From Ecdyonurus torrentis (lineage: Eukaryota; Arthropoda; Insecta; Ephemeroptera; Heptageniidae), in assembly GCA_949318235.1 (NCBI GenBank), contig OX439132.1, forward strand, positions 42,860,331 through 42,924,330: 64,000 nt of DNA. The letters run 5' to 3'. The notes under the pieces are model-generated. The model was not told where the DNA came from. It made no database searches and saw only the letters and a list, made by a program, of their open reading frames with translations. Of this stretch, positions 21,876-39,276 are shown one piece after another (position 1 is the first letter of the stretch; every line of letters starts with the position of its first letter). A program made the translations under genes and the position numbers.

Positions 21876-21881
21876 GCCAGT
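21876..21881. repeat. Polinton target site duplication, left copy
   Basis: GCCAGT immediately outside the left terminal repeat. The identical hexamer lies at 40082-40087 immediately outside the right one. Six bases is the known Polinton duplication length. Confidence 0.95.
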
Positions 21882-22346
21882 AGTAGAATAAGGTGTGCAG
21901 TTTATGGCTCCAACTACGTCACAACCTACCCTGAAAACCCTGAGACATCACTGATAAAATGATCTGACGTCATAGTTTATAGATAAGTAATGTTACGTCA
22001 TTAAAACGTCATAAAACATGTTTTTAAGTTGTTATGACGTAACGGATATGGAATGAGATGGCTCTAATACCTTTTACCTTGTAGATTGGTAGTTAGCCCC
22101 TTCCCTCACCTTTGTTGTGTTTGTCTTTTTTCTTTATTAGCTGCCTCCTTTTTTTGTCCCCCTTTGTCTCTCCCCCTTTACCTCTTCCCCTTTGGCTCTC
22201 CTCCTTTACCTTTGCCTGCTTTTTATTTCCCCCCTTTGGCTTTTAGATTTTGTTTCTTCCCCTTTGCCCCTCTACCTTTGCCTCTCTACCTTTACCTCTC
22301 CCCCTTCTTCTTCTCTGCCCCCCCTTTTTTCTTTGACTCCCTTTTT
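21882..22346 (+). repeat. Polinton left terminal inverted repeat
   Basis: Pairs with 39617-40081. I followed the register (coordinates sum to 61963) from AGTAGAATAAGG to the CTTTGACTCCC word at 22331 without a net indel. Beyond 22346 the two copies diverge within CT-rich low-complexity sequence that continues to about 22480. Inside are five ACGTCA-type words (21915, 21965, 21993, 22005, 22035), one of them the full palindrome TGACGTCA. Confidence 0.95.
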
Positions 22347-22480
22347 CTCTCTCCCCGTTCCTCTCTCTCTCCCTTCTTTTCTCTCTCTCCCTTCCTCTCT
22401 CTCTCCTTACCTCTTTCTCTCCCCTTCCTTTTTCTCTCCCACTCCTTTTCTATTCCCCTACTCTTTCTCTCTCTCTCTTT
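22347..22480. repeat. CT-rich low-complexity tail of the left terminal repeat
   Basis: Runs of CTCTCTC and CCTT. The long Pro/Leu/Ser/Phe frames here (22086-22505 and 22192-22482) are a composition artefact and not annotated as genes. Confidence 0.8.
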
Positions 22481-22624
22481 AATGGAAAGAAAAATGGTGG
22501 TTTGATTATAAGCGAATGTTATCCATCGTAAACTGATGACATTGCTTTACGTTTATTGTTATTTGTAATGTTGGACATAAGAAAGTAAATATTTAATTTA
22601 ATAATCTTTTAAATTAAATATTGC

Positions 22625-22633
22625 TATATTAAG
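22625..22633 (+). promoter_or_regulatory. TATA-like element TATATTAAG
   Basis: Lies 27 bp before the ATG of the 68-aa gene. The same word with the same sense precedes the penton-type gene (27683-27691). Prediction by motif only. Confidence 0.35.
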
Positions 22634-22651
22634 TAAAATGAAACTAGTACA

Positions 22652-22858
22652 ATGGATGCTTCTACGAAGAAATGTGTTCGTTTCAGTGCTCCAGTAATCT
22701 TTTATGTGAATGACTTACCACACGAAATTGAATGTCGCAAAATTTATTGGGAATTCTTTCCCATTGATAGGATGAGGTTTAGAAATAGAATTAATGAAGT
22801 ATCGAAAATTCTTACACCTGTTTTATTAGCAAAAATTAAAAAAAGTTTAAATGAATGA
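22652..22858 (+). CDS. Small PPP1R15 (GADD34/CReP)-like protein, putative PP1 recruiter for eIF2-alpha
   Basis: 68 aa. Seen: an RVxF-type PP1-docking motif K7-C8-V9-R10-F11 followed by S12 and hydrophobics. After a spacer come R29, W33-E34 and the cluster D39-R40-x-R42-F43-x-x-R46-I47, then a short basic tail. Known: this order (RVxF, then an R..WE....DR.RF..RI block) is the core of the PPP1R15 family, in which the first half grips protein phosphatase 1 and the second half engages the actin/eIF2-alpha side, giving dephosphorylation of eIF2-alpha and resumed translation. Several animal DNA viruses carry shortened versions. Inferred: this is a minimal element-borne version that counters stress- or kinase-triggered shut-off of translation. 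It is the first gene inside the left repeat, upstream of the ATPase. There is no signal peptide or membrane segment. The match is by pattern only, so chance resemblance is not excluded. Confidence 0.68.
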   Translation: MDASTKKCVRFSAPVIFYVNDLPHEIECRKIYWEFFPIDRMRFRNRINEVSKILTPVLLAKIKKSLNE

Positions 22859-22859
22859 G

Positions 22860-22868
22860 TATATAAAA
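22860..22868 (+). promoter_or_regulatory. TATA box of the ATPase gene
   Basis: TATATAAAA, 43 bp before the ATG at 22903 and directly after the stop of the preceding gene. Would give a leader of roughly 10-15 nt. Confidence 0.45.
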
Positions 22869-22902
22869 GAAAAAATTTACTTGTATAGATTTATTATAAA
22901 AT

Positions 22903-23601
22903 ATGGAGTTTAAGCAGCAAGATCATAAATTTACTATAGATAATTTGGTGACTGATGGTTTTCAGAAGAAATTACGTGAAAAGAACGGCCCTTTGTTACC
23001 AGAAAATATAAGATGCTTGATTTGTGGGCCTTCTTCATGTGGTAAAACGCAACTTTTATTAAACTTATTAACGAACGAAAATGGTGTTAAGTTTTTCAAT
23101 GTTTACGTTTATTCAAAAACCTTATATCAACCTAAATACAATCTTTTAAAAAATTTACTCTCTGAAATAAAAGAAATAGGGTATTACGCTTTTGATAAAG
23201 GTGAGGAAGTTATTTCACCAGAAAAAGTAAAAGAAAATTCAGTGATGATATTTGATGACATTATCTGTGAGAAACAATCGGCAATGAGAGAATATTTTTG
23301 TCTTGGTCGCCATAAAAATGTGGATGTTTTTTACTTAGCACAGTGTTATTCTAAAATACCTAAAAATCTTATAAGAGAAAATTCTAACCTTTTGGTTATT
23401 TTTAGACAAGATCACATGAATTTAAAACATATATTTGATAATCATGTCATTACTGATATGAGATTTGATGAATTTTTAGAGTTGTGTACTTGTTGCTGGC
23501 AAGAGAACTTTGGATTTTTAGTGATTGACAAAGAGTGTCCGTTAAATGATGGACGATATCGTAAGGGGTTTGACAAGTTTGCCACTATAAAAGAAGTGTA
23601 A
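22903..23601 (+). CDS. FtsK/HerA-type genome packaging ATPase (A32-like)
   Basis: 232 aa, the usual size for Polinton ATPases. Walker A is GPSSCGKT at residues 42-49, and Walker B is the hydrophobic strand ending in D118-D119 (VMIFDD). A conserved block at residues 134-160 (GRHKN....YLAQCYSKIPK.LIREN) contains the Arg and Gln residues typical of the family. Known role: ATP-driven translocation of element DNA into a preformed capsid. It lies in the rightward gene block after the 68-aa gene and before the DUF8207-like gene. All key residues are present. Identification is firm. Confidence 0.93.
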   Translation: MEFKQQDHKFTIDNLVTDGFQKKLREKNGPLLPENIRCLICGPSSCGKTQLLLNLLTNENGVKFFNVYVYSKTLYQPKYNLLKNLLSEIKEIGYYAFDKGEEVISPEKVKENSVMIFDDIICEKQSAMREYFCLGRHKNVDVFYLAQCYSKIPKNLIRENSNLLVIFRQDHMNLKHIFDNHVITDMRFDEFLELCTCCWQENFGFLVIDKECPLNDGRYRKGFDKFATIKEV

Positions 23602-23648
23602 GTTATTACATTTCATGCAGTAGAAGGTATACTCTATTAAAGTGAATA

Positions 23649-24818
23649 ATGAAGGCAAGGAAAGAACATAAGAAAGTTAGTGCAAAAAATAAGAATGTTG
23701 AAAAACATATAAAGCTTAATTGTAATAATACAAAAAAGTATATTCAAAACAAATTAAGAAATAGTATACAATCAATAAGAGCAAAATATAAATTATTATT
23801 GAAAGACAAAGAAAAACATTCAACGGAATTACATGATCGTTTGAAACCGTTAACAGAACGGCTTGATAAATTGGTAGTTAATACATCAAAACAAAAGTAT
23901 TCACCTACTTTAAATGATAGTAACATAAGCATTAAGGACGATGAACTAACATTTTCCGAGCAAGAGGAAGACGAACGTCATTTCACACCTCATCATAAAA
24001 AAGGTGATCGTGAAGAAGGTAATATAAATCAAAAGTCAACGAATGTTTCATTTATGGATCCAGACATTGAAGAAACATACGAATTTGAAGGTAATGATGA
24101 ATTAGAACGAAAAGAAGAAGAAGGGGAAGAAGAAGAAGAAGAAGAAGAAGAAGAAGAAGAAGAAGAAGAAGAAGAAAAAGAAGAAGATGAAGAAGGGTAT
24201 GAGACACCACGAGGAAATAATCGTAGTCCTAAACAAAAGAAAATGACACCAAGGCAGAGTTATTTAAATAAAGTGGGGTTAGATAAAGTAGATGCTGATC
24301 TTGTTCCATATCTTAAAGAATATACAAATTATAAAACACCTAGTGATACAATAGATACAACATACGGCGTGGCAACTTCAGGTCGTTTTTTTTTTCTTGG
24401 AGACAAAAGAATTGAATTTTTGCGTGATGGATTCCAAGTTGGTGGTGTAAAATATAAAGGTTCACCTGGACTATACGAGTTAATATTTTTAAAAAATCCT
24501 GAAAATTATACCAAAAGTGATATTTCTAATTATAAAAAAATATTGGATGCAACAAATGCTCACCGAATTCAATTTTCATCAAAAAGAATGCGACCTTCTA
24601 ATATAAAAAAGTTTATTAACGTGATAAAACCAATGTTTCAAAATAAAGGATATGGCATGGATGTGAGCAAACCTATTTACGAATATTATGATGATGTGAA
24701 TGAAATTGTCGATAGATTAAAACTACTGATAGCATCGGCCAGATCTGGGAATAATTCTCATGATAATGAGATTATTTCAATTGTTGAGGAGTTGCGTAAA
24801 CAAAACGTCGTTTTATAA
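23649..24818 (+). CDS. Acidic coiled-coil protein with DUF8207-like C-terminal domain
   Basis: 389 aa. Residues 1-80 are basic and probably helical, and residues 155-183 are a nearly pure Glu tract encoded by a GAA-type trinucleotide run (about 24110-24190). Residues 235-330 form a compact domain with TTYGV..SGR.FFLG, a G.KYKGSPGLYELIF core and YKKIL.ATNAH. That pattern is common in Polinton-encoded proteins and, as far as I recall, corresponds to Pfam DUF8207; I could not check. Function unknown. Its place among virion genes hints at a structural or DNA-associated role. The Glu tract is likely length-variable. Confidence 0.75.
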   Translation: MKARKEHKKVSAKNKNVEKHIKLNCNNTKKYIQNKLRNSIQSIRAKYKLLLKDKEKHSTELHDRLKPLTERLDKLVVNTSKQKYSPTLNDSNISIKDDELTFSEQEEDERHFTPHHKKGDREEGNINQKSTNVSFMDPDIEETYEFEGNDELERKEEEGEEEEEEEEEEEEEEEEEKEEDEEGYETPRGNNRSPKQKKMTPRQSYLNKVGLDKVDADLVPYLKEYTNYKTPSDTIDTTYGVATSGRFFFLGDKRIEFLRDGFQVGGVKYKGSPGLYELIFLKNPENYTKSDISNYKKILDATNAHRIQFSSKRMRPSNIKKFINVIKPMFQNKGYGMDVSKPIYEYYDDVNEIVDRLKLLIASARSGNNSHDNEIISIVEELRKQNVVL

Positions 24819-24850
24819 TATTAAATTGCGTATCGTGTCACCAGTGTCAG

Positions 24851-24859
24851 TATATAAGG
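24851..24859 (+). promoter_or_regulatory. TATA box TATATAAGG
   Basis: Lies 31 bp before the ATG at 24882. The same nonamer occurs upstream of the polymerase gene at 34617. With usual TATA-to-start spacing transcription would begin almost at the ATG. Confidence 0.5.
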
Positions 24860-24881
24860 TAGAGCCGCGAAGAAAGCAAAC

Positions 24882-25364
24882 ATGGATTTGCATAATATAA
24901 CACCGTACATACAACAACCAGATTTTTATAGCGTTGGTACATATCTTAGTAAAGGTGACACACCAAATGTACGTGATTTAAAGGATTCAGTTCATGAAAT
25001 AAAAGAAGATATTTCCAACATTAAAAGTGAATTACCTTCACATTTAATTTCGAAAATTAATACTTTCTTTCAATATGATTCATACTTTAATGCAAGTGAA
25101 AAAGCAATAAAAAATTTAGGTCGTGGTGATGGTCAACAAGATGCTATTCAAAAAGAATACTTAGATGAAATATGTGAGACGAAGTATAAAAATCTAGAAG
25201 CTGAGAACTTGAATAAAATGGTAGACCTTGCAAATAAAGTACAAGATCAATTTTCCATCTATATAAAAGACGTATATCATCATTTAGAAGACGCTTTAAA
25301 AAAAGAAATCGAGGAACGAATTTCTACCATAGAGGTTAGAATACAAAATCTTGAAAGAAATTAA
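24882..25364 (+). CDS. Coiled-coil protein with fibre-like motif
   Basis: 160 aa, unrecognised by name. Residues 30-60 and 95-160 have heptad-like spacing of Leu/Ile/Val and high charge, typical of coiled coils. Residues 76-97 (IKNLGRG....DAIQKEYLDE) resemble the NLG...DAV.K.YVD motif found repeatedly in trimeric phage tail-fibre and adhesin proteins. A trimeric fibre or spike component is possible and would suit a gene between virion genes, but this rests on one short motif. No signal peptide or membrane segment. Stop at 25364, 11 bp before the integrase ATG. Confidence 0.6.
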   Translation: MDLHNITPYIQQPDFYSVGTYLSKGDTPNVRDLKDSVHEIKEDISNIKSELPSHLISKINTFFQYDSYFNASEKAIKNLGRGDGQQDAIQKEYLDEICETKYKNLEAENLNKMVDLANKVQDQFSIYIKDVYHHLEDALKKEIEERISTIEVRIQNLERN

Positions 25365-25375
25365 GCAATAAAAAT

Positions 25376-26302
25376 ATGATTGTTAAAGAAGATATAGTGA
25401 ATGAGATTCATCGGAGTGCCAGGAAGAATTTTCAAAGAAGAAAAGTTATTGTTAAAGGTGTTGGTGAGACTCTGCAAGCTGATCTTGTTGATATGCAAGA
25501 TTATGCAAAATTTAATAATAATTATAAATATATTTTATTTGTTATTGATATATTTAGTAAATTTGCGTATGGAGAAGCTCTTAAAAGCAAATCAGCAGAG
25601 GAAGTGAGTGCAGCAATGCAAAAAATTTTAAAGAGATGTGTGTATATACCAAAACACATACAAACTGACAAAGGGACAGAATTTTTTAATATTAAGTTCA
25701 AAGCTTTAATGCATAAATACAAAATAAATCATTATTCTACATACAGCGTAATGAAAGCTCAAATTGTCGAGCGCTTCAATAGAACAATTAAAAGTAAAAT
25801 GTGGAAAATGTTTAATTACAAAGGATCATACAAGTGGATATTGTTTTTACAAGATTTAATTGGTGGATATAATAACACATATCATCATACAATAAAGATG
25901 AAACCTGTAGAAGTGACAAAAGACAAAGAAAGTCAATTACTGAAAACGGTATATAATTTTCATCGAGTGAATTCAAAAGAATCTAAAATTAAAGTAGGTG
26001 ACCATGTGCGTATCAGTAAAAGAAGACACGTTTTTGCTAAAAGCTATCTTCCGAATTGGAGCACAGAAATTTTTATTGTAAGAGAAGTTAAAAATACTAT
26101 ACCATTTACATATTTACTGTCTGATTTGAATAGAGAAACAATACTCGGATCTTTTTATGCACAACAACTACAAAAAACTAATTTAATTCACGATTATTTG
26201 ATCGAAAAGGTTATTCGCAAGGATGGTAAAAAAATGTACGTAAAGTGGTTAGGATTTGATGAGAGGCATAACAGCTGGGTGCATATTGAACAATTGAAGT
26301 AA
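25376..26302 (+). CDS. Retroviral-type (rve) integrase with C-terminal chromodomain
   Basis: 308 aa. Catalytic triad D36 (in QADLVDM), D98 (QTDKGTEF) and E132 (IVERFNRT). Residues 200-255 match the SH3-like DNA-binding region and residues 273-308 a chromodomain (VRKDG..MYVKWLGFDE.HNSWV). Known role: integration of element DNA with 6-bp target duplication, the chromodomain steering it to chromatin marks. Only 35 residues precede the first Asp, so the zinc-binding HHCC domain of retroviral integrases is missing in this frame. It may be genuinely absent, or supplied by an unseen upstream exon. No internal stops. Confidence 0.93.
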   Translation: MIVKEDIVNEIHRSARKNFQRRKVIVKGVGETLQADLVDMQDYAKFNNNYKYILFVIDIFSKFAYGEALKSKSAEEVSAAMQKILKRCVYIPKHIQTDKGTEFFNIKFKALMHKYKINHYSTYSVMKAQIVERFNRTIKSKMWKMFNYKGSYKWILFLQDLIGGYNNTYHHTIKMKPVEVTKDKESQLLKTVYNFHRVNSKESKIKVGDHVRISKRRHVFAKSYLPNWSTEIFIVREVKNTIPFTYLLSDLNRETILGSFYAQQLQKTNLIHDYLIEKVIRKDGKKMYVKWLGFDERHNSWVHIEQLK

Positions 26303-26340
26303 ATAAAATAAATCTCATTTTTAAAACTGTATTAGTCGAA

Positions 26341-27309
26341 ATGAAGTGCTTGACTGGATTGCGAGGCAGAGGTTTGATTAACTCTCTCATAAATAATTTA
26401 CCAGTCGAGCTTCACATTCCTGGATATAATTATTGCGGACCTGGCACAAAATTAGAAAAGAGATTGGCTAGAGGTGACCAAGGTGTAAACGAACTAGACG
26501 ATGCGTGTAAAAGGCATGACATTGCTTATTCAAAATCAAAAGATCTGTCAGAAAGACATGTAGCAGATAATGAGCTTGCATCAGTAGCGTCCCGACGTCT
26601 GAAAGCAAAAGACGCTTCTATTGGAGAGAAACTTTCATCACTTATCGTAAAGAAAGGTATGCAAGCTAAAATAGCACTCGGAGCTGGGGTTAAAATGAGA
26701 CATAGAAAAAAACCTATTTCATTGAAATCAAAAGTGAGGAAATCTGGAAAAAGGAAGACTTCTTTCTTGGTAAAAAAACAAATAAACAATAAAAAAAGAA
26801 GTGTTGCTCAACGTAAAAAGATACGTGGGCAAATCAAGAATTCGCGTAAGAAAAAAGGTGGATTGATAAATAAAAAACGAGTAAAATTACCAACAAAAAA
26901 ACTATTTAATTTAGCTGTACGCAATGCAAAGAAAGAAGTAAGAAACACAAAAAATAAAAGCTTGCGAGATGTTGCGCAACAAGCACTACTATCTGCAAGA
27001 AAAACTTTAAAAAATAAAAACTTTGACAAAAATAATTTAAACCTTCGTGTGATCCCAATTCCTAAAAAAATTGGTGGATTCCTCCCAATTATTTTAGCTG
27101 CTCTTGGTGCTCTAGGAGGTTTAGCCGGAGGTGTTTCAGGAGTAGTTAATACTGTGAATAAAATAAAAAATGCTAAGCAACAACTGGAAGAAGCAAAACG
27201 TCACAACGATACAATGGAGGCTATTTCGTTGCAAAAAGGAAAAGGTTTATATTTGGAACCGTACAAGACAGGATATGCACTTCGTTTGCATAAGAATGCA
27301 AAAAACTAA
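26341..27309 (+). CDS. Minor capsid protein: PLA2-like domain plus pVI-like membrane-active tail
   Basis: 322 aa. Residues 25-66 carry a phospholipase A2 signature: calcium loop YCGPG at 31-35 and catalytic H59-D60 with preceding D53-D54, as in parvovirus VP1-unique regions. Residues 100-235 are very rich in Lys/Arg and suit DNA or capsid contact. Residues 243-273 are hydrophobic and Gly/Ala-rich. The end contains GKGLYLEPYKTGY, a form seen in Polinton and adenovirus pVI/pX-type proteins with membrane-lytic roles. Inferred job: endosomal membrane breach during entry. The last sense codons read AAA AAC before TAA and form part of a frameshift heptamer leading into the protease. Confidence 0.8.
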   Translation: MKCLTGLRGRGLINSLINNLPVELHIPGYNYCGPGTKLEKRLARGDQGVNELDDACKRHDIAYSKSKDLSERHVADNELASVASRRLKAKDASIGEKLSSLIVKKGMQAKIALGAGVKMRHRKKPISLKSKVRKSGKRKTSFLVKKQINNKKRSVAQRKKIRGQIKNSRKKKGGLINKKRVKLPTKKLFNLAVRNAKKEVRNTKNKSLRDVAQQALLSARKTLKNKNFDKNNLNLRVIPIPKKIGGFLPIILAALGALGGLAGGVSGVVNTVNKIKNAKQQLEEAKRHNDTMEAISLQKGKGLYLEPYKTGYALRLHKNAKN

Positions 27310-27335
27310 TACGTGGAGTGCCAAGATCAGCACTC
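27300..27335 (+). promoter_or_regulatory. Putative -1 programmed frameshift signal
   Basis: Slippery heptamer A AAA AAC at 27300-27306 in the frame of the upstream gene, immediately before its TAA (27307-27309). A 9-nt spacer follows (27307-27315), then a perfect 6-bp stem GAGTGC (27316-27321) with GCACTC (27330-27335) around an 8-nt loop. Shifting by -1 continues at CTA (27306-27308) into the open protease frame. Heptamer identity, frame phasing, spacer length and stem all fit known eukaryotic -1 signals. Expression evidence is lacking. Confidence 0.62.
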
Positions 27336-27674
27336 AGCAATTTACAGATAAATAATTATGTACGAAAATTAAGTATCCCCAATTTTCGTGGTGTCTTCAT
27401 GAGAAACAATCTTCCTCTAAAACCTTGGAAGTACGAAAGTGGTGTAATTAACATGGACGATAAAGAAAATGTGGGGACACATTGGACAGCTTATGTGAAA
27501 AAAAATAATGACGTGATATTTTTTAATTCTTATGGTAACTTAGCGCCACCTGTAGAGTTTTTGAAATACATGGAAGATGCTAAATCAATTGTATATAATA
27601 GACTGCGATATCAAAGGGACGAAACCTCTGACTGTGGTCGGTTGAGTTTACTGTTTCTTAGTGCTCATACTTAA
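27306..27674 (+). CDS. Adenovirus-type (adenain-like) cysteine protease, entered by frameshift or a non-ATG start
   Basis: The frame is open from 27294. Conserved sequence typical of Polinton proteases (GVPRSALSN, then LSIPNFRGVFMRNNLP) begins at 27315, but there is no ATG before residue 28 counted from GTG 27318. Counted from that GTG, the catalytic residues are H55 (GTHWTAYV), N70 (FFNSYG), Q99 and C106 (DCG). Known role: maturation of capsid proteins. The N-terminal conserved part cannot be reached by an ordinary ATG, which is why I annotate from the frameshift landing codon. A GTG start or a spliced leader are alternatives. It ends soon after the catalytic Cys, as in other compact relatives. 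Confidence 0.82.
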   Translation, partial: LIRGVPRSALSNLQINNYVRKLSIPNFRGVFMRNNLPLKPWKYESGVINMDDKENVGTHWTAYVKKNNDVIFFNSYGNLAPPVEFLKYMEDAKSIVYNRLRYQRDETSDCGRLSLLFLSAHT

Positions 27675-27682
27675 ATTTTTTA

Positions 27683-27691
27683 TATATTAAG
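27683..27691 (+). promoter_or_regulatory. TATA-like element TATATTAAG
   Basis: 18 bp before the ATG at 27701, same word as at 22625. Too close for a conventional leader unless transcription begins inside the gene, so confidence is low. Confidence 0.25.
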
Positions 27692-27700
27692 GACATCAAT

Positions 27701-28438
27701 ATGTCAACTGTGCACGTTATTAGTGGAAACTCAGAGACATTATCTTGTCAAGTGCATCCACCCATACAAGTAGATACATCTAAACAATTTGAAGTTGGTT
27801 TGTTACGTCTCTCCACGTACAATACTATACCTAACATAAAAAAGGAAATCAACGATAAGTTGTATTTTATTATCAAAGGTGAATTAGATTTTATTAGGGT
27901 TCCAGAAGGCACCTATTCAATTCCTATGTTGAATGAAGAAATAAAAAAACTTTTAGTGAAGAAAGAACTGTCTGCCAAGAACTTTAACCTCCGCATTGAT
28001 ATCAAGACACTTAAATGTGTCATTCAAACAAACATGCATTTATCCTTTAAAGGACAACATAGTTTAGGTCACCTAATTGGTTTCGATGGAATGATAGTTT
28101 CACCCTCAACTGCACTTAAGGAATATTACGGAAAAGGAATTGCAAAAATAATGGATGTTAATATAGTGAACGTTGAATTGGGTTTTGCTGATGGTTCATA
28201 TAATAACGGTGTGCGTGGACATTCAATCTATAGTTTTTGTCCACGAGTACCTCCAGGATACAAGATCGATGAAGCTCCCAAAGAAGTATCGTTTTATCCC
28301 GTCAATAGGAGAAGAATTAACAAGATAGATATTACTTTGACGGATCAAGAAGGCAAGCAGATATCCTTAAGAGGTGAGACTGTCACTATTGTTCTTCAGT
28401 TGCGGGTTGTTAACAAGCAGCATGGTGTTTATAATTAA
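27701..28438 (+). CDS. Penton-type minor capsid protein (single jelly roll)
   Basis: 245 aa. Shows the profile of Polinton minor capsid/penton proteins: beta-rich, with FEVGLLRLSTYNTIPNI near residues 30-46, PEGTYSIPMLNEEI near 68-81, GHLIGFD near 127-133 and a final strand region INKIDITLTDQEGKQISLRG followed by a hydrophobic beta strand. Known role: pentamer at the capsid vertices. It follows the protease by 26 bp and precedes the major capsid protein, the usual Polinton order. No breaks seen. Confidence 0.8.
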   Translation: MSTVHVISGNSETLSCQVHPPIQVDTSKQFEVGLLRLSTYNTIPNIKKEINDKLYFIIKGELDFIRVPEGTYSIPMLNEEIKKLLVKKELSAKNFNLRIDIKTLKCVIQTNMHLSFKGQHSLGHLIGFDGMIVSPSTALKEYYGKGIAKIMDVNIVNVELGFADGSYNNGVRGHSIYSFCPRVPPGYKIDEAPKEVSFYPVNRRRINKIDITLTDQEGKQISLRGETVTIVLQLRVVNKQHGVYN

Positions 28439-28463
28439 GAAAACTTACACGCCCTGTGGTGTC

Positions 28464-28625
28464 ATGTATGGGAAAGAAACATATAAATACCCCCATTCAG
28501 AACAAAACGAAATGTATAAAGCTTCAAGTAACGCAAGAGGAAAGGTGTCTCTACCGCTTACTAAAGAAAATAAATTATTTTTAAAATCACTTGGTTTTAA
28601 ATTGATGCAAGATGAATCATATTAA
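28464..28625 (+). CDS. Small conserved Polinton protein between penton and major capsid genes
   Basis: 53 aa from ATG 28464. The C-terminus LTKENKLFLKSLGFKL resembles a short motif I recall next to Polinton capsid genes. The frame is open further upstream (to 28374, overlapping the penton gene), and ATG 28422 is an alternative start. It overlaps the major capsid gene by 14 bp (28612-28625). Function unknown; a minor virion component is possible. Confidence 0.5.
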   Translation: MYGKETYKYPHSEQNEMYKASSNARGKVSLPLTKENKLFLKSLGFKLMQDESY

Positions 28626-29838
28626 TCCATACGATAAGACAATTGAAGATTATTCGATCGAGAAAGATTACTACACAACATACAATCCGCAAGACATAGG
28701 AAAATTCAAGCATAGTGATATTATACGATTTAGGATTATGGACCAAGATGCGATGTTATATCCACATGAAAGTTACATTAGAATTCGTGGTAAAATTCAC
28801 TCCAAGGGTTCTCAACTCGAGCATTCTTATTTAGTGAATAATGCATTTATGTTTCTCTTCGACGAAGCAAGATACCAGATAAATTCGGGGGAGGCCTCTG
28901 TAAATCGGGACGTTGCACATTCAAGTCTTGTTCGCAGCCTCACGACTTTAACTCCCTCGGATCTAAAAGCATACAAAGGCATCGGCTTTATACCTGGAAA
29001 TACGTATAAAGACGGAAAATTACCTCAAGAATTTGAAGTGTCCATTCCCCTAAAATATTTCTTTAGTTTAATTGAAGACGTGAGAAAAATAACTATAAAT
29101 GAACGTATTGTTCTTGAACTGGTCCGATCAAGATCAGATAAAAACTGTTTTGTAGTAAAAGCTGACAAAGCTGCAACCGAAACACCTCAGATCGATATCA
29201 CAGATGTACAGTGGTATATGAAACAAGTTCAATTATCCGAGGAAGCAAAAGAACCGTTATTATTCAACGTTAATAAGAACAGACCGATAAATAAGTATTT
29301 TCGCGAATGGGAAGGGCATGTTTACCCGAACCTGCCTGAATCAACAAACATCACATGGAACGTGAAAGTTACCTCAGAATTAGAGCGACCCAAGTGGGTT
29401 ATAGTTTTCTTTAAAACTCAACGTGACGACAACATTACAAAAGATAATTCTCGATTCGATAATTGCGGTATACGCTCAGTAAGAGTGAATATTAATAATA
29501 ATTTTTATCCCTATGAAGAAATAAATGTTGATTTTGAGAAAAATTATACATCACAACTTTATGAATGCTATGCACAATTTCAATCATCGTATAACATGAA
29601 AAAACCGGAGCCAATTTTCGATACAGAGGAATTCATTAAATATAATCCAATGTTCGTGATTGATTGTTCCAAACACAGTCAACCAATAATTTCTCAGAGT
29701 GGCGCTGTTGACGTAAAGATTATGATTGAAACTAAGAGTAAGAATATGCCAGAAAAAACGTCTGGTTATTGTATTTTAGTATACGAGAAGGGTTTGAAGC
29801 TAGAGCCTCTGACTGGTACGTTGTCTCGCATTGTGTGA
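28612..29838 (+). CDS. Major capsid protein (double jelly roll)
   Basis: 408 aa. Beta-rich with features of Polinton major capsid proteins: N-terminal YY..YNPQDIGKFKHSDIIRF, the stretch LVNNAFMFLFDEARYQINS (residues 74-92), and a second jelly roll from about residue 220 with WVIVFFKTQRD and LYECYAQFQSSYN near 305-320. Known role: hexon-like trimer forming the icosahedral shell. It is somewhat short for the family, whose members often exceed 450 aa, but no truncation point is visible and both barrels appear represented. The start follows from overlap with the preceding small gene. Confidence 0.85.
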   Translation: MNHINPYDKTIEDYSIEKDYYTTYNPQDIGKFKHSDIIRFRIMDQDAMLYPHESYIRIRGKIHSKGSQLEHSYLVNNAFMFLFDEARYQINSGEASVNRDVAHSSLVRSLTTLTPSDLKAYKGIGFIPGNTYKDGKLPQEFEVSIPLKYFFSLIEDVRKITINERIVLELVRSRSDKNCFVVKADKAATETPQIDITDVQWYMKQVQLSEEAKEPLLFNVNKNRPINKYFREWEGHVYPNLPESTNITWNVKVTSELERPKWVIVFFKTQRDDNITKDNSRFDNCGIRSVRVNINNNFYPYEEINVDFEKNYTSQLYECYAQFQSSYNMKKPEPIFDTEEFIKYNPMFVIDCSKHSQPIISQSGAVDVKIMIETKSKNMPEKTSGYCILVYEKGLKLEPLTGTLSRIV

Positions 29839-29844
29839 AAAAAA

Positions 29845-30336
29845 ATGTTTGTTTTTGCAATTATTGACTTTTACTTCGACCGTGACGGTCAATTTGAGTT
29901 ATCAGTCGGCAACTTGATGACCGAAAGTATAAGTCATTGGAACGAAACATTGGAGAAGAAAATAAATTGTGAAAATTGTTTAGGCTCTAAACTTAACACT
30001 GAACTATGCTTTTGTTATATTAGAGATAATGTTAAACATTACTGTCAAAACTTTCATTTATTGTTTGCAAGAAATCGAAGCCAAGCAGATTTTTTAAACA
30101 ATATTATCTTTACTGACGATAAGACGGTTATGGATATACAAGAACTCGGAGGATCTCCTGATGTAACATCTTTGCAACACGTGGAAGGAAGTGAATGCCT
30201 TTGTCACAATGAATTTTTTGATGACAAAACCATATGTTCTAAATCAAATTGTTTCAAGTGTATTCGTTGGTTCGAACAAAACTACCACTACTTTTTTTTT
30301 GTTTATCATAACAGTAAACATTTTAAACCAAGCTAA
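29845..30336 (+). CDS. Cysteine-rich hypothetical protein
   Basis: 163 aa, starting 6 bp after the major capsid gene. Cysteines and histidines cluster at residues 41-68 (CENC, then CFCY and HYC) and 119-139 (CLCH, C, CFKC), which could form zinc knuckles. The C-terminal residues 142-163 are Tyr/Phe/His-rich. No family recognised. Position suggests co-transcription with the capsid block. AATAAA-like words follow the stop at about 30355. Confidence 0.65.
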   Translation: MFVFAIIDFYFDRDGQFELSVGNLMTESISHWNETLEKKINCENCLGSKLNTELCFCYIRDNVKHYCQNFHLLFARNRSQADFLNNIIFTDDKTVMDIQELGGSPDVTSLQHVEGSECLCHNEFFDDKTICSKSNCFKCIRWFEQNYHYFFFVYHNSKHFKPS

Positions 30337-31098
30337 ATGTGTATATAACAAATTAAATAAAATATATTGATGTTTCATATTTTTTAAAAAATATTGGTAA
30401 TATTTTGTTTATATATAGATAGAACTATTTATCTAATAGCTTATACTTTACATTAAGCTTTTTTAATGCTGTATCTATAAGCTTGCATTTTGTAGATTTT
30501 TTATATTAATAAATTGGAATACTTTTTATGGGAAAACTTATTTTTATTTTAAAGTGTACTTCCCCTCTTTTTTCCCCTCTTTCTTAAAAATACTATAAAA
30601 CAAAAACAGTTTATTTATTTATTTATTATTACAATTTATTAGAAGTCTTTGATATATTTATTATGTATTTTCTTTTCTTATTTCATTGAAGTAAAATTGG
30701 TAAAATGTAATTTTGTTTATAAAAAATAAAAAACTAAAAATATGTATATACACATATGTACTTCTTTTAAAAAATATCTAGAACCTTTTAAAAATTACCA
30801 TCTTTAAAATAACTTAATATAAAATTAAAATTTTAATTTATGATATAATTGGAAAAAGGAAGAACAAAAAACAAATTAACATGTAAGTGTAAAATTTTTT
30901 TATTTGGCAAAATATCCATAACAACAAATAAATCTTTACAAAATGAACATAAAAACATATTTAAAAAACCTTAGTATAAAAAAATGCTATATTATATATT
31001 TATTATATATTATATAATATAAAAATTTTAAACCAGAAGAAAAAGTACCCATAAAATAGAACAAAATCGCAAAATTGATTAGAGAGACATTTTTCTGT
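30337..31098. other. AT-rich spacer between convergent Polinton gene blocks
   Basis: Very AT-rich and no open frame. It lies between the rightward block ending at 30336 and the leftward block ending at 31099, so it probably holds the polyadenylation signals of both. AATAAA-type words occur near 30355. Confidence 0.6.
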
Positions 31099-31821
31099 TT
31101 ACAATGCTTTCATAAATACTTGGTTGAGACAATTTTTTAACAATTTAAAGCTGGAAGGTGACATACATATTGCACCATTTAAGAAGGAAGTAACATCATT
31201 TACGCTAAATATTCTCACCCATATTCCATGTTTATCTTTGGCAACCTCTGCAGGAGATTGATTTGACAATGCTATGAATCGATAATTTTTTACATAGTTA
31301 TTTTTTTCAAGTTCAGTAATGTGATATTGCAGTTTTGGTAAATCAATCTCTAAAAAAGATTGTAATTTAAATTCTAATGGTACTTGCATCCAAAGTGATC
31401 CAAGCTCTATAGAATCTAGATTACAATCATTTTTGTGAATTTTAATTGTTAAAAAGTTTGAACCAACAGCTACAGGCCCGTATTTTAGTACATTATCAGA
31501 CACTGTGTTATTTTTTGAATCAGTTTCAAATAATGAACGTGTTATATCATGTTGCTCAACCCTTTCTATATTTTTTTGTGAGTGAAAGCCGGATGCTTCA
31601 TCAATTTTAATCAAATTAATTCTTACTTCGATCACATGATCCGAAGTATTTGGAATTTCAAGAGACATTGTTTCAATCTCCTCACGTAGAGAACAATCGT
31701 ATTCCCACCCAGCACAGCTGAGTAGTTCTCGGGATGTTAAGGTGGTATTTATGAGTTTAGGTTCATTAATGTTTGAGTAACGATCAGCATAAGCAAGCGG
31801 AACGTCTCGGTTCTGTGACAA
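31099..31821 (-). CDS. Unrecognised Polinton protein, probably a 3' exon
   Basis: About 240 codons open. There is no ATG near the 5' end: the frame begins at a TTG directly downstream of a long T run, and TTTTTGTCACAG|AACCGAG is an excellent splice acceptor. I therefore suspect that coding sequence begins at about 31815 as a second exon, with its first exon upstream on the minus strand. The first internal ATG would be near residue 52. The protein is mixed alpha/beta without signal peptide or membrane segment, and no domain is recognised. It lies downstream of the leftward OB-fold-like gene. Confidence 0.55.
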   Translation of the reverse strand: MSQNRDVPLAYADRYSNINEPKLINTTLTSRELLSCAGWEYDCSLREEIETMSLEIPNTSDHVIEVRINLIKIDEASGFHSQKNIERVEQHDITRSLFETDSKNNTVSDNVLKYGPVAVGSNFLTIKIHKNDCNLDSIELGSLWMQVPLEFKLQSFLEIDLPKLQYHITELEKNNYVKNYRFIALSNQSPAEVAKDKHGIWVRIFSVNDVTSFLNGAICMSPSSFKLLKNCLNQVFMKAL

Positions 31822-31987
31822 AAAAAAAAAAAAAAAAAAAAGTATAAAAAGAAAAGAAAAATTTCAACCAATTAAAAAAATAAAAAAAAAAAAAGACTAA
31901 GAGAGAAAAAAAATGATATGTATTTTTTCTAAAAAAGCATGCTAAGAATTAAGCCCTTATCAATGCGTTTTTGAATTCAAGTAAATA

Positions 31988-32656
31988 TTATTTCTGTGGC
32001 AGGTTGAAAACGACAAACTTTAAATCATGACACCTCCCATTAATAAGGCCTCTAAAAACCAAAGCCAATGATTTTTCCCGAAGTGTGTTATAATTAACCA
32101 TCATGGCCTTGCTCAAGTTAATACTTGACGCGATACGTTTGTTCAGATAAACCACAAAGGTATTATTACCTTCTTGTAACGTGGTTTTCAGGCTAAGACC
32201 ATAACTTGTGTTTACCTTTTCAAATCTCAAGATTTGATAAGGTTTATTTATTGTGAGATCAGAAATTTTACGATAAGTTACCGTTTGACAGCATGCGTTG
32301 AGTGCATCCAATAGATCTCGAACTTCTCTCCTTAGTCCTATTTCAGCTATACTTGTTAACACGCCATTCGTGTTAATTGATTTCTCGCCGTTGTCATGTT
32401 CGTTCTCCGATTCCAGAACCTCCACCTCACCATCTTCGACTTCATCTTCATCGTCAATTACGTCTTCTTCTTCGTCTGCAGAATATTCAACCAACTCCTC
32501 TATTTTACGTTTCTTAGGAAGAGGAACAATTTTCTTTGCAGGTTTTTCCTTAGGCTTGCCCTTAACAGATTTTGTAAGTTTACCAGGTGTTACTTCTATG
32601 TCGTCATCATTGTAAGTAAGAGAGCCAGGAGTGGAAGTAGATTCTAACGAAGTCAT
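31988..32656 (-). CDS. Nuclear, possibly OB-fold ssDNA-binding protein
   Basis: 222 aa. Residues 20-54 are basic with an SV40-type nuclear signal PLPKKRKIE at 46-54. Residues 59-90 are strongly acidic. Residues 130-222 alternate beta strands (DLTINKPYQILRFEKVNTSYG, NNTFVVYLNKRI, SLALVFRG, DLKFVVFNL), a pattern typical of small OB-fold DNA-binding proteins in viruses and transposons. Inferred: ssDNA-binding accessory of polymerase B. The ATG follows immediately after a splice acceptor (TTAATAG|ATG), implying a 5'-UTR intron. Confidence 0.55.
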   Translation of the reverse strand: MTSLESTSTPGSLTYNDDDIEVTPGKLTKSVKGKPKEKPAKKIVPLPKKRKIEELVEYSADEEEDVIDDEDEVEDGEVEVLESENEHDNGEKSINTNGVLTSIAEIGLRREVRDLLDALNACCQTVTYRKISDLTINKPYQILRFEKVNTSYGLSLKTTLQEGNNTFVVYLNKRIASSINLSKAMMVNYNTLREKSLALVFRGLINGRCHDLKFVVFNLPQK

Positions 32657-32763
32657 CTATTAACATAAGAAAGAAAAAATATTGTTCATTTAAAAGAGTC
32701 ATTTTTATTTTACTTTTAGACAGTCACACACATATATATATATATATTTTATCTTTACTCACC
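32657..32763 (-). other. Predicted 5'-UTR intron of the leftward gene
   Basis: On the minus strand the donor AAAAAG|GTGAGTAAAG lies at about 32763 and the acceptor TTCTTATGTTAATAG abuts the ATG at 32656. A short untranslated exon would run from about 32850 to 32764. Confidence 0.55.
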
Positions 32764-32875
32764 TTTTTCTTGTCTTTTAAATTCTCGAAGAGTGAGAGAG
32801 AAGAGGGATAATTTCGTATTTTGAGTGGTTAAATAAACAAAATAGAAATGATATAATTGCATGAATGTGTTTGGG

Positions 32876-32884
32876 TTTATATAC
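32876..32884 (-). promoter_or_regulatory. TATA box of the leftward gene
   Basis: TATATAAAC on the minus strand, placing transcription start near 32850, just upstream of the predicted untranslated exon. Confidence 0.5.
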
Positions 32885-33080
32885 CAATTAAAATAAAGTG
32901 GAAGGGAAGGGAAGTGGAAATAATCTTGGAGGGGAATAACTGATTTTTTTAATATATGCTAACGTTTGCTTCTTTCAAAACATCACACTGCTTAAAGATT
33001 TAAAAAAACTTTTATTTATACTTGTACTTGATTGTATGCAATTTATTTAACTATTTTAATTCAATATTTTGCTTTTCAAT

Positions 33081-34100
33081 GCTAGCAATAAACGTTTGAT
33101 AACAATAATTTCATTTAATATCACGATTATCTCATATATAGTTTTAAAAAAAATCTCCACTATGTGTGTAAATAATATAAAAAAAAATTATATATTATTT
33201 ATAGATTTTAACTATTTGTTCAGTTCTAATTGTATAGGATTAAGGCTATATAAAACTATAATTATATTAGACATGTGCTTTACAGTTGTTGGTTTAAAAT
33301 TCTGCTGATTATTGTATACCTTATGCTAGCTCCTAAATGTTTGATAACAATAATTTTTATTTAATATCACGATTATCTCATATTTAGTTTAAAAAAAAAC
33401 TCCACTATGTGTGTAAATAATATAAAAAAAAATTATATATTATTTATAGATTTTAATTATTTGTTCAGTTCTAATTGTATAGGATTAAGGCTATATAAAA
33501 CTATAATTATATTAGACATGTGCTTTACAGTTGTTGGTTTAAAATTCTGCTGATTATTGTATACCTTATGCTAGCTCCTAAACGTTTGATAACAATAATT
33601 TCATTTAATATCACGATTATCTCATATATAGTTTTAAAAAAAAACTACACTATGTATGTAAATAATATAAAAAAATTATATATTATTTATAGATTTTAAT
33701 TATTTGTTCAGTTCTAATTGTATAGGATTAAGGCTATATAAAACTATAATTATATTAGACATGTGCTTTACAGTTGTTGGTTTAAAATTCTGCTGATTAT
33801 TGTATACCTTATGCTAGCTCCTAAACGTTTGATAACAATAATTTCATTTAATATCACGATTATCTCATATACAGTTTTAAAAAAAAACTCCACTATGTGT
33901 GTAAATAATATAAAAAAAAATTATATATTATTTATAGATTTTAATTATTTGTTCAGTTCTAATTGTATAGGATTAAGGCTATATAAAACTATAATATAAT
34001 TAGACATGTGCTTTACAGTTGTTGGTTTAAAATTCTGCTGATTATTGTATACGTTATGCTAGCTCCTAAACGTTTGATAAAAAACTTTCATATATTGTCA
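33081..34100. repeat. Tandem repeat, unit about 244 bp, four copies plus a partial
   Basis: The word GCTAGC followed by TCCTAAACGTTTGATAA starts units at 33081, 33325, 33570, 33813 and 34058. The units are nearly identical in the parts compared, including TGTTCAGTTCTAATTGTATA and TTAGACATGTGCTTTACAG. They lie between the divergent promoters of the leftward gene and the polymerase gene. Open frames here (33069-33308, 33763-33999) simply repeat with the unit and are not annotated. Confidence 0.92.
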
Positions 34101-34616
34101 CGACTTTCTCATAATATGATAATACACTTTAAGCATATGTTCCGTAAAAAACGTTATATATGTATCTATAGGATGTATAATCATGTATTTATAATAAAAG
34201 TATTTATAAAAAATTGAATAAATATAATATAAAAAGGTTAGAACCTCAAACATATAAGACAACAATTTTTTTTTAAAAATAAGCAGAATTATGATGGTAC
34301 AAGGGTAAATGTGGTATGTTTTCAAAAAATGCTTATATGAAATAATTAACGAGCTATACTATCAGTTAACAAGAACTATGACCTCTAAAAATCTGCATAT
34401 TCGATTTTTTTTAAAAGCTGTACTCACAATATAAAATGCATCGCTTGCAATAATTTATATTTTACGCGTTTTAATTTTATGACGTATATTTTTTAAATAA
34501 ACTTTGACCTTATAATTTTACTTCGATGCATGTTTAAGTTTTTCTTGCAACTGTCTTAAAAAAATAAATAAATAAAAAAAAAAAAAAAAAAAAAAAATAT
34601 GGGAGGGAGGTGACGG

Positions 34617-34625
34617 TATATAAGG
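34617..34625 (+). promoter_or_regulatory. TATA box TATATAAGG of the polymerase gene
   Basis: Same nonamer as at 24851. It follows a long A tract (34570-34597) and a G-rich word. Transcription would start near 34648. Confidence 0.6.
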
Positions 34626-34729
34626 CCACGTCTAAAAATTATCGCGTTTGTCTTTCTAAAACACTTTGCTGATCAAAGTAAGAGTTGCTGCAACAAATTT
34701 TGAAGTATATGTGATCGACGTAAGTACAA

Positions 34730-35050
34730 ATGTTATCTGTTTAATATGTATTTTATGTTGTAAATTTTTATCAAAAATATATTATTTTTTTTTTTAATTT
34801 ATAGGTTTTTAAATTGTAATGCAACTTCTACTTCAGTCAGATAATTGAAGTTTTAAAGACCTCTACGTTTCAGCTAATTATGCAGGTTTGTATAAAATAT
34901 TAAAATATAATAATATATGAGAATAATAAAAAAAATTTAATTTTCATATTGATATACATGTCTCATAACATTTAATTTAAATAAACCATTAACGGTTATG
35001 CATTGATATTTTTATTAAAAATTAATTGTTACTTTGTGTTTTTGTTTTAG
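34730..35050 (+). other. Two predicted 5' introns of the polymerase gene
   Basis: The first intron starts at GATCGAC|GTAAGTACAAATG (about 34720) and ends at TTTAATTTATAG (about 34804). The second starts at ATGCAG|GTTTGTATAA (34886) and ends at TTTTGTTTTAG (35050). The second splits the coding sequence two codons after the ATG. Confidence 0.6.
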
Positions 35051-38000
35051 AATCGTCCATCAGTTATAGTACAAAATTCCATCTATAATCCCAATAAAAG
35101 ACGTCGTTTAAGCAGCAGATCTTCTTCTTCTTCGTCTTTATGTTCATCTTCTTCTTCTTGCTTGCAAAGCGTGAATGACGAGTATCAACAAGAACATGGT
35201 GTGGACATCTCTGAACCTGGCACTTCTGCTTCAAACAAGGTTACAAACAATTCAAAATCTAATAGATATAAGAGCGCTTTCAATAAACGGGTTGTGCAGA
35301 TTAAATTTAGAAATACTGAAAAAATACATGATGTTGTTGAATTTTTAAAATGTAAATTATATCCAATTAAGGATTATCTTAGCAATCAGTTAATACAAAA
35401 AAAGGGTATCCGATTTCGACTTGTTCTAAATTGTAAATTAGAGCGACCGAATAGTGATGAAATACTTGATGGTAACTTTAAGACAGCCATGACGCCAATG
35501 TTTTCAAATGAAGACATCGATCTCGAATTGCATGATATGTATGATAAAATTATTACAGAGTTAGCTGATATGCAGGAAAAGGGAAGTGGGTGGAAGGTTG
35601 TTAAAATAAAAAATATTTTATTGCGACTCACAAAATATACACCATTATCAGGTTCTAGCTATATTCCGCTTCCAAAAACATATCTAAACTCTAAAGCTAT
35701 AGTAAATATTAAAAATGATGACGATAAATGTTTTTTATACTCGGTATTATGTCCACAAGTAAAAAAAAATAGGAGTAATTTATTGCGATATAACTCGTTA
35801 ATCAATACATTAAATACAACAGGTCTTTCATGGCCATTACCTTTAAACCAAATTAGTAAGTTTGAAAAAAAAAATAATTGCTATAGTATCAACGTCTTTG
35901 TAATTGATGAAGACTCATTTAAAGATGAAATAAGACCGCTTCGAATATGTAAGTTGGAAAAGGTAAACCATAGAGACCTTTTGTTATTAAAATCAGAAAA
36001 CAGGACTCATTATTGTTGTATTCTTAATGTCGCATCTATCATTAAAAAACAAGTATGTAAAGATAACAGTAACAGAAAATTACATGTCTGCAAAAGGTGT
36101 TTTGCATACTTCAAAAGAAACGGAAAAGAAAAACTTAAAGATCACAAAATTTTATGTGACCAGAATCAAGTGGCTCAAGTTGTTTTACCTTGTAAAGATG
36201 GTGATCAATCTCCAGTATTAGAATTTCAAAATTATTATAAAAAATACAAAGTACCTGTAGTCTTGTTTTCTGATTGTGAATCAATCATCGTAAAATCTAA
36301 AGCAGTAGCGCAAGACAAAACGAAATCTTTCACAAATAAAGTTTCAAAACATGAAGTTATGTCGATTGGTTGCTTTGTTTATTCGCATTTAAATAAAAAA
36401 AGTTTAGGTAATATACCTTTAGGTTACCATAAATTTGAAGGTAATAATTGTGTTAAAAAATATGTTAAATTTCTTGATCACGTAGCTGATGAATATTCTA
36501 AAATTTATAAAAATAGTATTAACGATGAAATACCTGTGTTCAAAAGCTCGCGTGTATTACTTCATATTGAGAGGCTTAAACAAAATCCCAATTGTCATAT
36601 TTGCGGTAAAAAATTCTTAAAAAGTGACGTTCGTGTATTAGATCATGATCACTTGACAAAAGAACTGAGGGGTTTTGCCCATGCAAGTTGTAATTTAAGC
36701 TTTAAAGCTCCGAGACATATTCCAAATTTTTTTCACAATCTCAGTAATTATGATGCACATTTTTTTGTTAAAGCACTATCGTCAAATGTAAATAAAAATC
36801 CTGTTACTGTAATACCTCAATCCTCTGAAAAGTATATTTCATTTTCTAAAAAATACCCTCTGCCTTTCGACGTCGCAACAAAACGTTATCAATTTATTGA
36901 AATTAGATTTCTTGATTCATATAAATTTATGGGTAGATCAATCGATTCGTTAGCTTCCATGTTGCCTAAAGATAAATTATTCATAACAAAAACTCAATTT
37001 AAACCTGAAGATTTAGATTTAGTCTCTCGCAAGGGGATTTTTCCATACGAATTTGTAGATTGTAGAAAAAAATTGAATGAAAGAAGTCTTCCTCCAATCA
37101 ACTCTTTTTATAGCAAACTAAATAAAAAAAATATATCAAATGAGGATTACGAACACGCACAAAACGTATGGACTCATTTCAATATACAGAATCTCAATGA
37201 ATATAGTAACCTATATCTCAAAGTAGACGTTTGTTTACTTTGTGATATATTTCTTAATTTTAGAGAACTCTGTTTTCATCATTTTGAAATCGATCCATGT
37301 AATTATTATACAACTCCGGGAATGAGTTTCGATGCTGCGCTTAAAATAACTGGCGTCCAGTTAGAATTAATAACAGATATAGATCAAATGTTGTTCATAG
37401 AGAGTGGCATACGTGGTGGCAATACACAATGTATCATACGTCATTGCAAAGCAAATATTAAATCAAATCCTGATTTTAATCAATTAGAACCGGAAACACG
37501 TATATTTTACGTCGACAGTAACAACTTATATGGCGCTTCCATGGTAAGCAAAATTCCTACGAGAAATTTTATGTGGGCAGACGTCAGTTTGTTTACAAAA
37601 GAGTTCATATGTAAAATTGAGGACGATTATGAGGACGGATACTTTCTTGAAGTTGATTTAATATGCCCTGATCATCTTCATGATATACACAACGACTTCC
37701 CGTTCTGTCCAGAACTTAAAGCACCCCCTGGGAAAAAAATTAAAAAATTATTATGTACATTAGAACGTAAAACTAAATATATTATTCACCATTTAGCATT
37801 AAAATTAGCATTACAACACGGTCTTGAGTTAGGTAAAGTTCACAGAGTCCTACAATTTAAACAAGAAGCGTGGTTAAAAATATTTGTTGATATATGTACA
37901 GAAATAAGAAAAAATGCTAAAAATAATTTTGAAATTGAATTTCCTAAATTATGTGTTAATTCAACTTATGGTAAATCGTTAGAGAGAGTAAGAGACCGAA

Positions 38001-38722
38001 ATATGTTTTACATGTTGTATACACCTGAGGACTTTCAAATATTTGTAAATAAACATAACTATAAAGACTGTGTAATTTATTCTGAAAATATAGTGGGAGT
38101 TACATTAAATAAATTAAAAGTAAAATTAGATAGGCCTTGCTACTTGGGTATGGCAATATTGGATATTTCTAAATATATAATGTATAAATTTTTATACGAG
38201 GTGCTAAAACCTTTCTGGGGTGAGAATGTAAGGGTCGCTTATAGTGACACTGATTCGTTTGTACTTGTAATTCGTTCCAACACTTTTGAAGAAGATCTCG
38301 CTAAACTGAAAGATCACTTTGATTTTTCAAATTATCCACAAACTCATCCACTTTTTAGTGAGGTTAACAAAAAAGTGTTGGGAAAATTCAAGGATGAAAC
38401 CGCTGGTAAACCAATTCAAGAATTTATTGGATTACGTCCTAAATGTTATGCTCTAAAGTTACATGATTCTAATAAATTAACTTGTAAAGGCGTAAAGTCT
38501 ACAAATCTGAATACTGATATTTTGTTTGAAAATTATAAAGATTGTTTGCTAAATCAGAAATTAATGTACACTTCATTTTACACTATAAGATCATACAAAC
38601 ATGACGTATATACAATACATCAAAACAAGTTGGCACTTTCATGCTTTGATGATAAAAGATATATAATGCCAAATAATGTTGATACACTTGCTTATGGTCA
38701 CAAAGATATTCCTTTTAATTAA
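34880..38722 (+). CDS. Protein-primed family B DNA polymerase, spliced
   Basis: Proposed coding exons 34880-34885 and 35051-38722 give 1225 aa. The frame upstream of TTG 35162 is open back to 35051 without an ATG, so splicing supplies the start and adds a basic, Ser-rich N-terminus. Exonuclease motifs: D410-x-E412, Y569-D570 and D728 (YLKVDVCLL). A zinc/HNH (endonuclease VII-like) insert has C517, C520 and D533-H-D-H536. Polymerase motifs: D824 (DSNNLYG), N972 (NSTYG) and Y1066-S-D-T-D1070. The segment between the exonuclease and palm carries the terminal-protein regions typical of protein-primed enzymes. Role: replication of the linear element from its terminal repeats. All catalytic residues are present. 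Confidence 0.92.
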
Positions 38723-38820
38723 TCTTTTATATATATATATATGTTGCAGAAGCTGTCACGTGAAATATTGATTCTATCTATTTATTAATTTTTCACGGCA
38801 CAAAGGTAATATATAAAAAA

Positions 38821-39276
38821 ATGGTTGAATATAATGTTTCATTTTTAATGAACAAAGAGTTTAATAGCGATGTATTTAGTGACAATGTTAAAATAAATGC
38901 AGGTATTTGTAATGAAGCTATTCCATTCCCATGTGTTACATTACATTTTAAAGGAAATGTTGGATATTTACTTTTGACAAAAGATGAATGGCACAACCTT
39001 GTAAATACGGCAAATGAACTTACACATCTTTTAAGAAACAAAAGTATTGTTTCAGTTCGGTGTAGAGTTCTTCCTCACCTATTCGTTTCCTTATATTACA
39101 AAAAAGGTTTATGTAATATTAAGTTGGAACGATCTCGAAATCCAATTCCACATACAATTAAATATCTTCCTGATAAAATATTTTGTATAAATGATAAAAC
39201 ACTCTTATGTATATGTGATAATGCAATAAGTGTAAATAATTATCTTAATTTATTAAATAACTTTAAATTATATTAA
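38821..39276 (+). CDS. Small protein, possibly PC4-like DNA binding
   Basis: 151 aa, last gene before the right terminal repeat. Residues 43-70 (FKGNVGYLLLTKDEWHNLVN) resemble the strand-plus-helix core of PC4/p15-type single-strand DNA-binding proteins (a short beta strand, then xLTxxEWxxL). The rest is not recognised; several Cys occur near 98 and 136-141. No signal peptide. Assignment is weak. Confidence 0.55.
   Translation: MVEYNVSFLMNKEFNSDVFSDNVKINAGICNEAIPFPCVTLHFKGNVGYLLLTKDEWHNLVNTANELTHLLRNKSIVSVRCRVLPHLFVSLYYKKGLCNIKLERSRNPIPHTIKYLPDKIFCINDKTLLCICDNAISVNNYLNLLNNFKLY

Follow-up and report, generated by a model that had tools for sequence, protein, structure and literature searches.

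The window, by which we mean the whole stretch of 64,000 nucleotides of Ecdyonurus torrentis DNA that was analysed, carries a Polinton whose first gene is a short ORF resembling PPP1R15 (Table 1). The first-pass annotation had assigned this ORF to a Polinton, and the identity of the element is confirmed by its terminal inverted repeats (TIRs), its 6-bp target-site duplication and its genes for an A32-type ATPase, an rve integrase and a double jelly-roll (DJR) capsid protein, all of which it has in common with Polinton/Maverick elements. At their outer end the TIRs contain an ungapped stretch of 481 nt that is 99% complementary. The ORF starts 770 bases inside the element, and the ATPase gene starts 44 bases downstream of it; this ATPase has 305 relatives at E<=1e-5 and, among the 120 of them that were listed, those named by organism belong to the ant Trachymyrmex and the wasp Trichogramma.

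Table 1. Features of the Polinton and of the PPP1R15-like ORF (positions in the window)
Feature	Position	Strand	Basis or remark
Polinton, 18,200 bp, ends AGTAGAATAAGG...CCTTATTCTACT	21882..40081	+	computed TIRs and target-site duplication
Left target-site duplication, GCCAGT	21876..21881	.	perfect, 6 bp
Left terminal inverted repeat, 527 bp	21882..22408	.	96.8% to the right one (gapped)
PPP1R15-like ORF, 68 aa	22652..22858	+	ATG to TGA; first gene inside the Polinton
RVxF-type PP1 docking motif, K7-C-V9-R-F11	22670..22684	+	from sequence; V and F are counterparts of PPP1R15B V641 and F643
Arg and Trp sites, R29...W33	22736..22750	+	spacing equal to PPP1R15B R658...W662
D39-R-x-R42-F43-x-x-R46-I47	22766..22792	+	counterpart of PPP1R15A D588, R591, F592, R595
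A32-type packaging ATPase	22903..23601	+	Pfam PF04665, E=9.3e-7
Integrase	25376..26302	+	PF00665 (rve), E=4.2e-12; chromodomain PF00385 at 23.3 bits, below the 25.1 cut-off
Phospholipase A2-like domain protein	26341..27309	+	PF08398, E=5.1e-16
DJR major capsid protein	28612..29838	+	PF21738, E=1.4e-67
1077-aa protein with endonuclease VII domain	35489..38722	+	PF02945, E=1.8e-5
Right terminal inverted repeat	39554..40081	.	
Right target-site duplication, GCCAGT	40082..40087	.	perfect, 6 bp

The other genes of the element call for brief comment. For the 1077-aa protein Pfam gives the endonuclease VII domain only, with no match to PolB; from motifs recognised by eye, we take it to be a DNA polymerase B. 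The frame at 27399-27674 has nothing in Pfam and was called an adenain-type protease by eye. In the phospholipase A2-like protein the domain is followed by a lysine/arginine-rich stretch, and the protein might serve as a minor component of the element's virion. Frames without a convincing Pfam match (29845-30336, 38821-39276 and, on the reverse strand, 31099-31668 and 31988-32656) are possible further accessory genes. Two long tandem arrays were also seen, one at the start of the window (1-4962; period 148, 33.6 copies) and one within the Polinton (33089-34113; period 245, 4.2 copies).

The 68-aa product contains every residue that the first-pass annotation had named, namely K7-x-V9-R10-F11, R29 (18 residues past F11), W33-E34 and D39-R40-x-R42-F43-x-x-R46-I47. 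Codon log-likelihood, trained on 12 other genes of the element, is +7.2 in this frame and negative in the other five, and the in-frame reading of the opposite strand of 22652-22858 is interrupted by stops. A single-sequence AlphaFold2 model of the 68 aa (helices at 25-35, 40-50 and 56-67) is of low confidence, with a mean pLDDT of 46.9, and is given no weight here.

The proposal that these residues follow the layout of PPP1R15 is supported by matches of an element profile to solved PPP1R15 structures and by reciprocal matches with the PPP1R15 exon of the host. Searched with phmmer against 177,635 distinct PDB sequences, the 68 aa have a sole match at E<=10, the viral protein DP71L (E=2.1e-4), in an alignment that spans residues 7-64 of the ORF. 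In Pfam their sole family at E<=1 is PF10488 (PP1c binding region), at 12 bits and below the curated cut-off of 26.1, which is conventional and not itself a trait of the family; in an alignment of 11 members (A4), the same family is found at E<=10 for six (best 8.8e-9) and not for the other five. A profile built from ten element copies gives six matches in the PDB at E<=10, of which the best five are all PPP1R15 or DP71L: DP71L itself (1.1e-7), PPP1R15B (4v0x, 2.2e-4; 4v0u, 2.8e-4) and PPP1R15A (7nzm, 0.0094; 7nxv, 0.036), the sixth being Ssr1 (0.46). The profile comparison with PPP1R15 suggested at the outset therefore did find similarity.

In the host genome (503 Mb in 117 contigs were searched) the PPP1R15 core scores 32.6 bits on PF10488 and lies on an exon at G000:C17:3329911, whose frame meets an AG right before the VHF of the RVxF motif; we read this AG as a putative splice acceptor. 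When this exon is the sole query, the window ORF comes first of the 940 ORFs of the window (six-frame, stop-to-stop, at least 30 aa) with E=3.5e-5, the next having E=3.5. Conversely, element profiles built without the host sequence recover the exon at 37.6 bits and at 41.7 bits (the latter with a 14-copy profile, the exon being searched alone and the database size fixed at 10,000), and this 14-copy profile, which excludes the window ORF and its three sisters, gives the window ORF 63.3 bits. In BLOSUM62 local alignment the ORF scores 74 with the host exon and 83 with the DP71L stretch, and in neither case did any of 20,000 shuffles of the ORF reach the score. Judged by its sequence, the ORF is homologous to the PPP1R15 core, though divergent.

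It is also a member of a family, since 41 PPP1R15-like loci are found in this genome besides the host gene (the merged searches minus the host exon, five rows with E>2 and one row with E 3.39). The search with the 68 aa gave 17 matches, comprising the window ORF itself, three copies with 79% amino-acid identity (each adjoining the same type of ATPase as the window ORF), one with 50%, more distant ones and the host exon, and searches with two divergent members gave 43 and 27. Sequence was read for 33 of the 41 loci, eight not having been fetched, and 32 were aligned (25 distinct sequences), L009 being left out with its two stops. In the tree of the aligned loci the deepest forks are weak (60/75), and the joining of the host protein with DP71L was flagged as a possible long-branch effect. 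Of these loci, 17 entered the alignment through a text pattern, [VL][SRT]F with a later RF[KRQ].[RK][IV], which all 17 passed and which did not include R29, W33 or D39.

What do these copies retain? In excerpts from the work on solved complexes, V641 and F643 of PPP1R15B occupy the RVxF pockets and R658 the Arg pocket, with W662 four residues further on (PMC4394352), and in PPP1R15A D588 and R591 touch eIF2alpha, F592 and R595 touch actin, and W582 is important for catalysis (excerpts of PMC8500838). The eight contacts that we mapped (V641, F643, R658 and W662; D588, R591, F592 and R595) are all retained in the window ORF, as V9, F11, R29, W33, D39, R42, F43 and R46. Over the 32 aligned loci F11, R29, D39, R42 and F43 do not vary; position 9 is V in 27 loci and L in five, position 46 R in 27 and K in five, position 47 I in 31 and V in one, and position 7 K in 16. 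As the loci were picked by similarity, this choice accounts in part for the conservation of the residues that match best. At position 33, 19 of the 32 have W, and the others S (5), H (4), F (3) or Y (1). Homologues keeping W33-E34 and the DR.RF block in related Polintons had been asked for, and this is borne out in part: the R, the D and the RF are kept in other elements, all of the same genome, but the W in no more than 19 of 32. Since some lineages have lost the W, it should not be assumed that every copy works in the same way. The lineages with S, F or H in place of this Trp, which has been termed invariant in PPP1R15, are L062-L066, L059-L061, L015 and L072-L074.

R587 and R594, which also touch eIF2alpha, are I38 and N45 in the window ORF; these two are not kept by every relative, since DP71L has V at the first site and this host's own protein has A at the second. 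In the phi-phi region (PPP1R15B Y650 and I652), Y18 lies as far from the V as Y650 does, and the second site is N20 unless the register shifts.

We think it quite probable that the ORF encodes an element-borne mimic of PPP1R15, one that would bring PP1 to phospho-eIF2alpha and undo the shut-off of translation. By comparison with the solved PPP1R15 complexes, V9/F11, R29 and W33 would dock the 68-aa protein along host PP1, and a helix starting at about D39 would grip G-actin (through F43 and R46) and the barrel of eIF2alpha (through D39 and R42); the complex would then strip the phosphate from eIF2alpha and reopen translation, which would continue while the element expresses its capsid and replication proteins, countering the response of eIF2alpha kinases. 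Binding to PP1, actin and eIF2alpha, and a benefit to the element, are what we infer here by analogy; the element would presumably have to overcome an eIF2alpha kinase in an infection-like stage, as the first-pass annotation had reasoned. According to excerpts of PMC4394352, a mammalian PPP1R15 core of about 70 residues is enough by itself to attenuate the stress response in cells.

The most serious alternative, which we nevertheless consider rather unlikely, is that the protein binds PP1 through its RVxF-phi-phi-R-W string in order to act on some other substrate (for example a protein of the element), in the manner of Phactr or spinophilin. Spinophilin and PNUTS do share the RVxF motif and the Arg site, and Phactr1 makes use of the W pocket as well (excerpts of PMC8500838 and PMC4394352); in addition, 13 of the 32 aligned loci lack the W but retain the F of RVxF and the R. 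However, the D..RF block, which would provide the contacts with actin and eIF2alpha, is conserved as well as the PP1-binding part, and none of the five best PDB matches of the profile is named as another regulator of PP1.

Another reading, in which a captured host exon is carried as passenger DNA without function in the element, appears very improbable to us. It would fit the excerpted statement that the animal core lies on a separate exon (PMC4394352), with which the host frame here is consistent, and stops are present in some copies elsewhere in the genome. Against this, the ORF is under constraint between two elements: over 57 codons, the window ORF and its sister L003 differ with dN 0.086 and dS 1.076 (dN/dS 0.080, NG86), that is at 20 of 35 synonymous sites versus 11 of 136 nonsynonymous ones (Fisher p=1.5e-9), and complete ORFs with their own start codon exist in divergent families of the gene. 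For the neighbouring ATPase the same pair gives a dN/dS of 0.092 (NG86). Among other pairs, the NG86 ratios are 0.28 for L011/L015, and 0.70 for L007/L008 and 0.23 for L011/L014, the last two pairs being near-identical with too few differences to tell. The sister copies L004 and L005 match L003 along about 2.6 kb at 99.4% and 99.1% identity, and the flanks of the three differ right up to the end of the element, which indicates separate insertions. Finally, that an unrelated small protein resembles PPP1R15 by chance is hardly credible: the ORF is short and stays below the PF10488 cut-off, but reciprocal matches to the PPP1R15 exon of the host refute the idea, and the DP71L match, the shuffles, the profile matches and the invariant contact residues likewise speak against it.

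DP71L (PDB 9nb9 chain B), a 71-residue chain from a large DNA virus, is, like the ORF, a short PPP1R15 core; we take it to be the protein of African swine fever virus, and thus a gene of a large free virus. The element gene differs from it by its place in an integrated Polinton and by a longer linker between RVxF and R. With animal PPP1R15 proteins (GADD34, CReP) the ORF has in common the order of the core, RVxF - R - W - D..RF..R; yet mammalian PPP1R15 proteins exceed 600 aa, with the core close to the C terminus (excerpts of PMC8500838), whereas the element gene consists of the core alone and is not interrupted at the RVxF, the site at which the host frame runs into the putative splice acceptor. 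PPP1R15 cores are also known in herpes simplex virus and in the insect virus coGV (coGV-gp036), according to excerpts of PMC4394352. These two cores belong to DNA viruses, of different classes, and were likened to the ORF by description only. The virus coGV is presumably a granulovirus.

For a PPP1R15 (GADD34) gene in a Polinton or Maverick, we found no report among the papers listed from the open-licence PMC full texts (outside which most subscription papers and bioRxiv preprints fall). A paper there that mentions GADD34 and Maverick concerns glycosylation and heart disease; those that mention a Polinton and eIF2 do not deal with such a gene, judged by title and opening of the abstract, and those that mention a Polinton and an inhibitor of apoptosis are on a clam genome and on a fungal transposon. 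Outside this genome, single-sequence searches of a protein database and of viral contigs gave no relatives; a search of 5.8 billion proteins with a profile gave 2970 candidates with none at E<=1, small ORFs being often not called in such data; a profile scan of viral contigs returned 38 stretches with none confirmed, and ATPase-based scans of viral contigs gave nothing.

Within the genome, the gene is present in several element lineages. It lies directly upstream of the ATPase for the window ORF and its three sisters, and again in L008, where the ATPase scores just below the PF04665 cut-off and where the surroundings (region L052) also contain PolB and an rve-chromo integrase; for one member of the L062-L066 type (surroundings L077) it lies upstream of an ATPase named by eye. 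A search for the same small gene beside the ATPases of other Polintons had been proposed. When 30 ATPase loci were scanned with the profile, four had the ORF and 26 lacked it, so that we regard it as an accessory gene of some lineages and not of all.

A second companion is a BIR (IAP-like) gene, a kind of gene found in many Polinton-like elements of this genome. In L054-L056 the PPP1R15-like gene is near a BIR protein (L054:4629-5366, L055:4434-5261 and L056:7045-7551), L054 and L055 also having a RING finger, and an adenovirus-type protease was scored in L054 and seen, similar by eye, in L055 and L056. Over the genome, with 150 of 209 BIR candidates scored and distances taken between listed starts, a BIR (IAP) match is found within 2.4 kb of 27 of the 41 PPP1R15-like loci; at 25 loci it is at 2 kb or less, against about 0.05 expected at random, the copies of one element not being independent events. 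Of 59 ATPase matches (which include pieces of one broken gene) the same four lie within 2 kb of a PPP1R15-like locus and 31 lie within 6 kb of a BIR match, and none does both. Around L010 and L006 the genes noted (L053:3644-4678 on the reverse strand and L053:6341-7699; L050:83-1813) comprise 3-BIR IAP genes near both loci and an IS1595/ISXO2-like transposase gene near L010. Among the ORFs that were scanned in a fetched stretch of 10 kb, no Polinton gene was recognised around either; these two loci could be what is left of a different virus, or copies that have been co-opted.

Polintons could be transposons or else integrated viruses that have an infectious stage, a question not yet settled. 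A constrained gene whose known DNA-virus relatives are believed to work against the host's arrest of translation speaks indirectly for a viral stage. We can go one step further, to an idea on which we find ourselves evenly divided: several Polinton-like lineages would carry a counter-defence set, made of a PPP1R15 mimic by which translation is kept going and, in many cases next to it, an IAP that blocks cell death, and the capture of PPP1R15 would be recurrent in animal Polintons. If such a set exists, it would imply a true virus-like stage that damages the cell and triggers eIF2alpha kinases. The pairing of PPP1R15 with IAP points to translation arrest and cell death as the barriers raised by the host, and the divergent copies without Trp are natural variants from which one may learn which contacts of the eIF2alpha phosphatase are needed.
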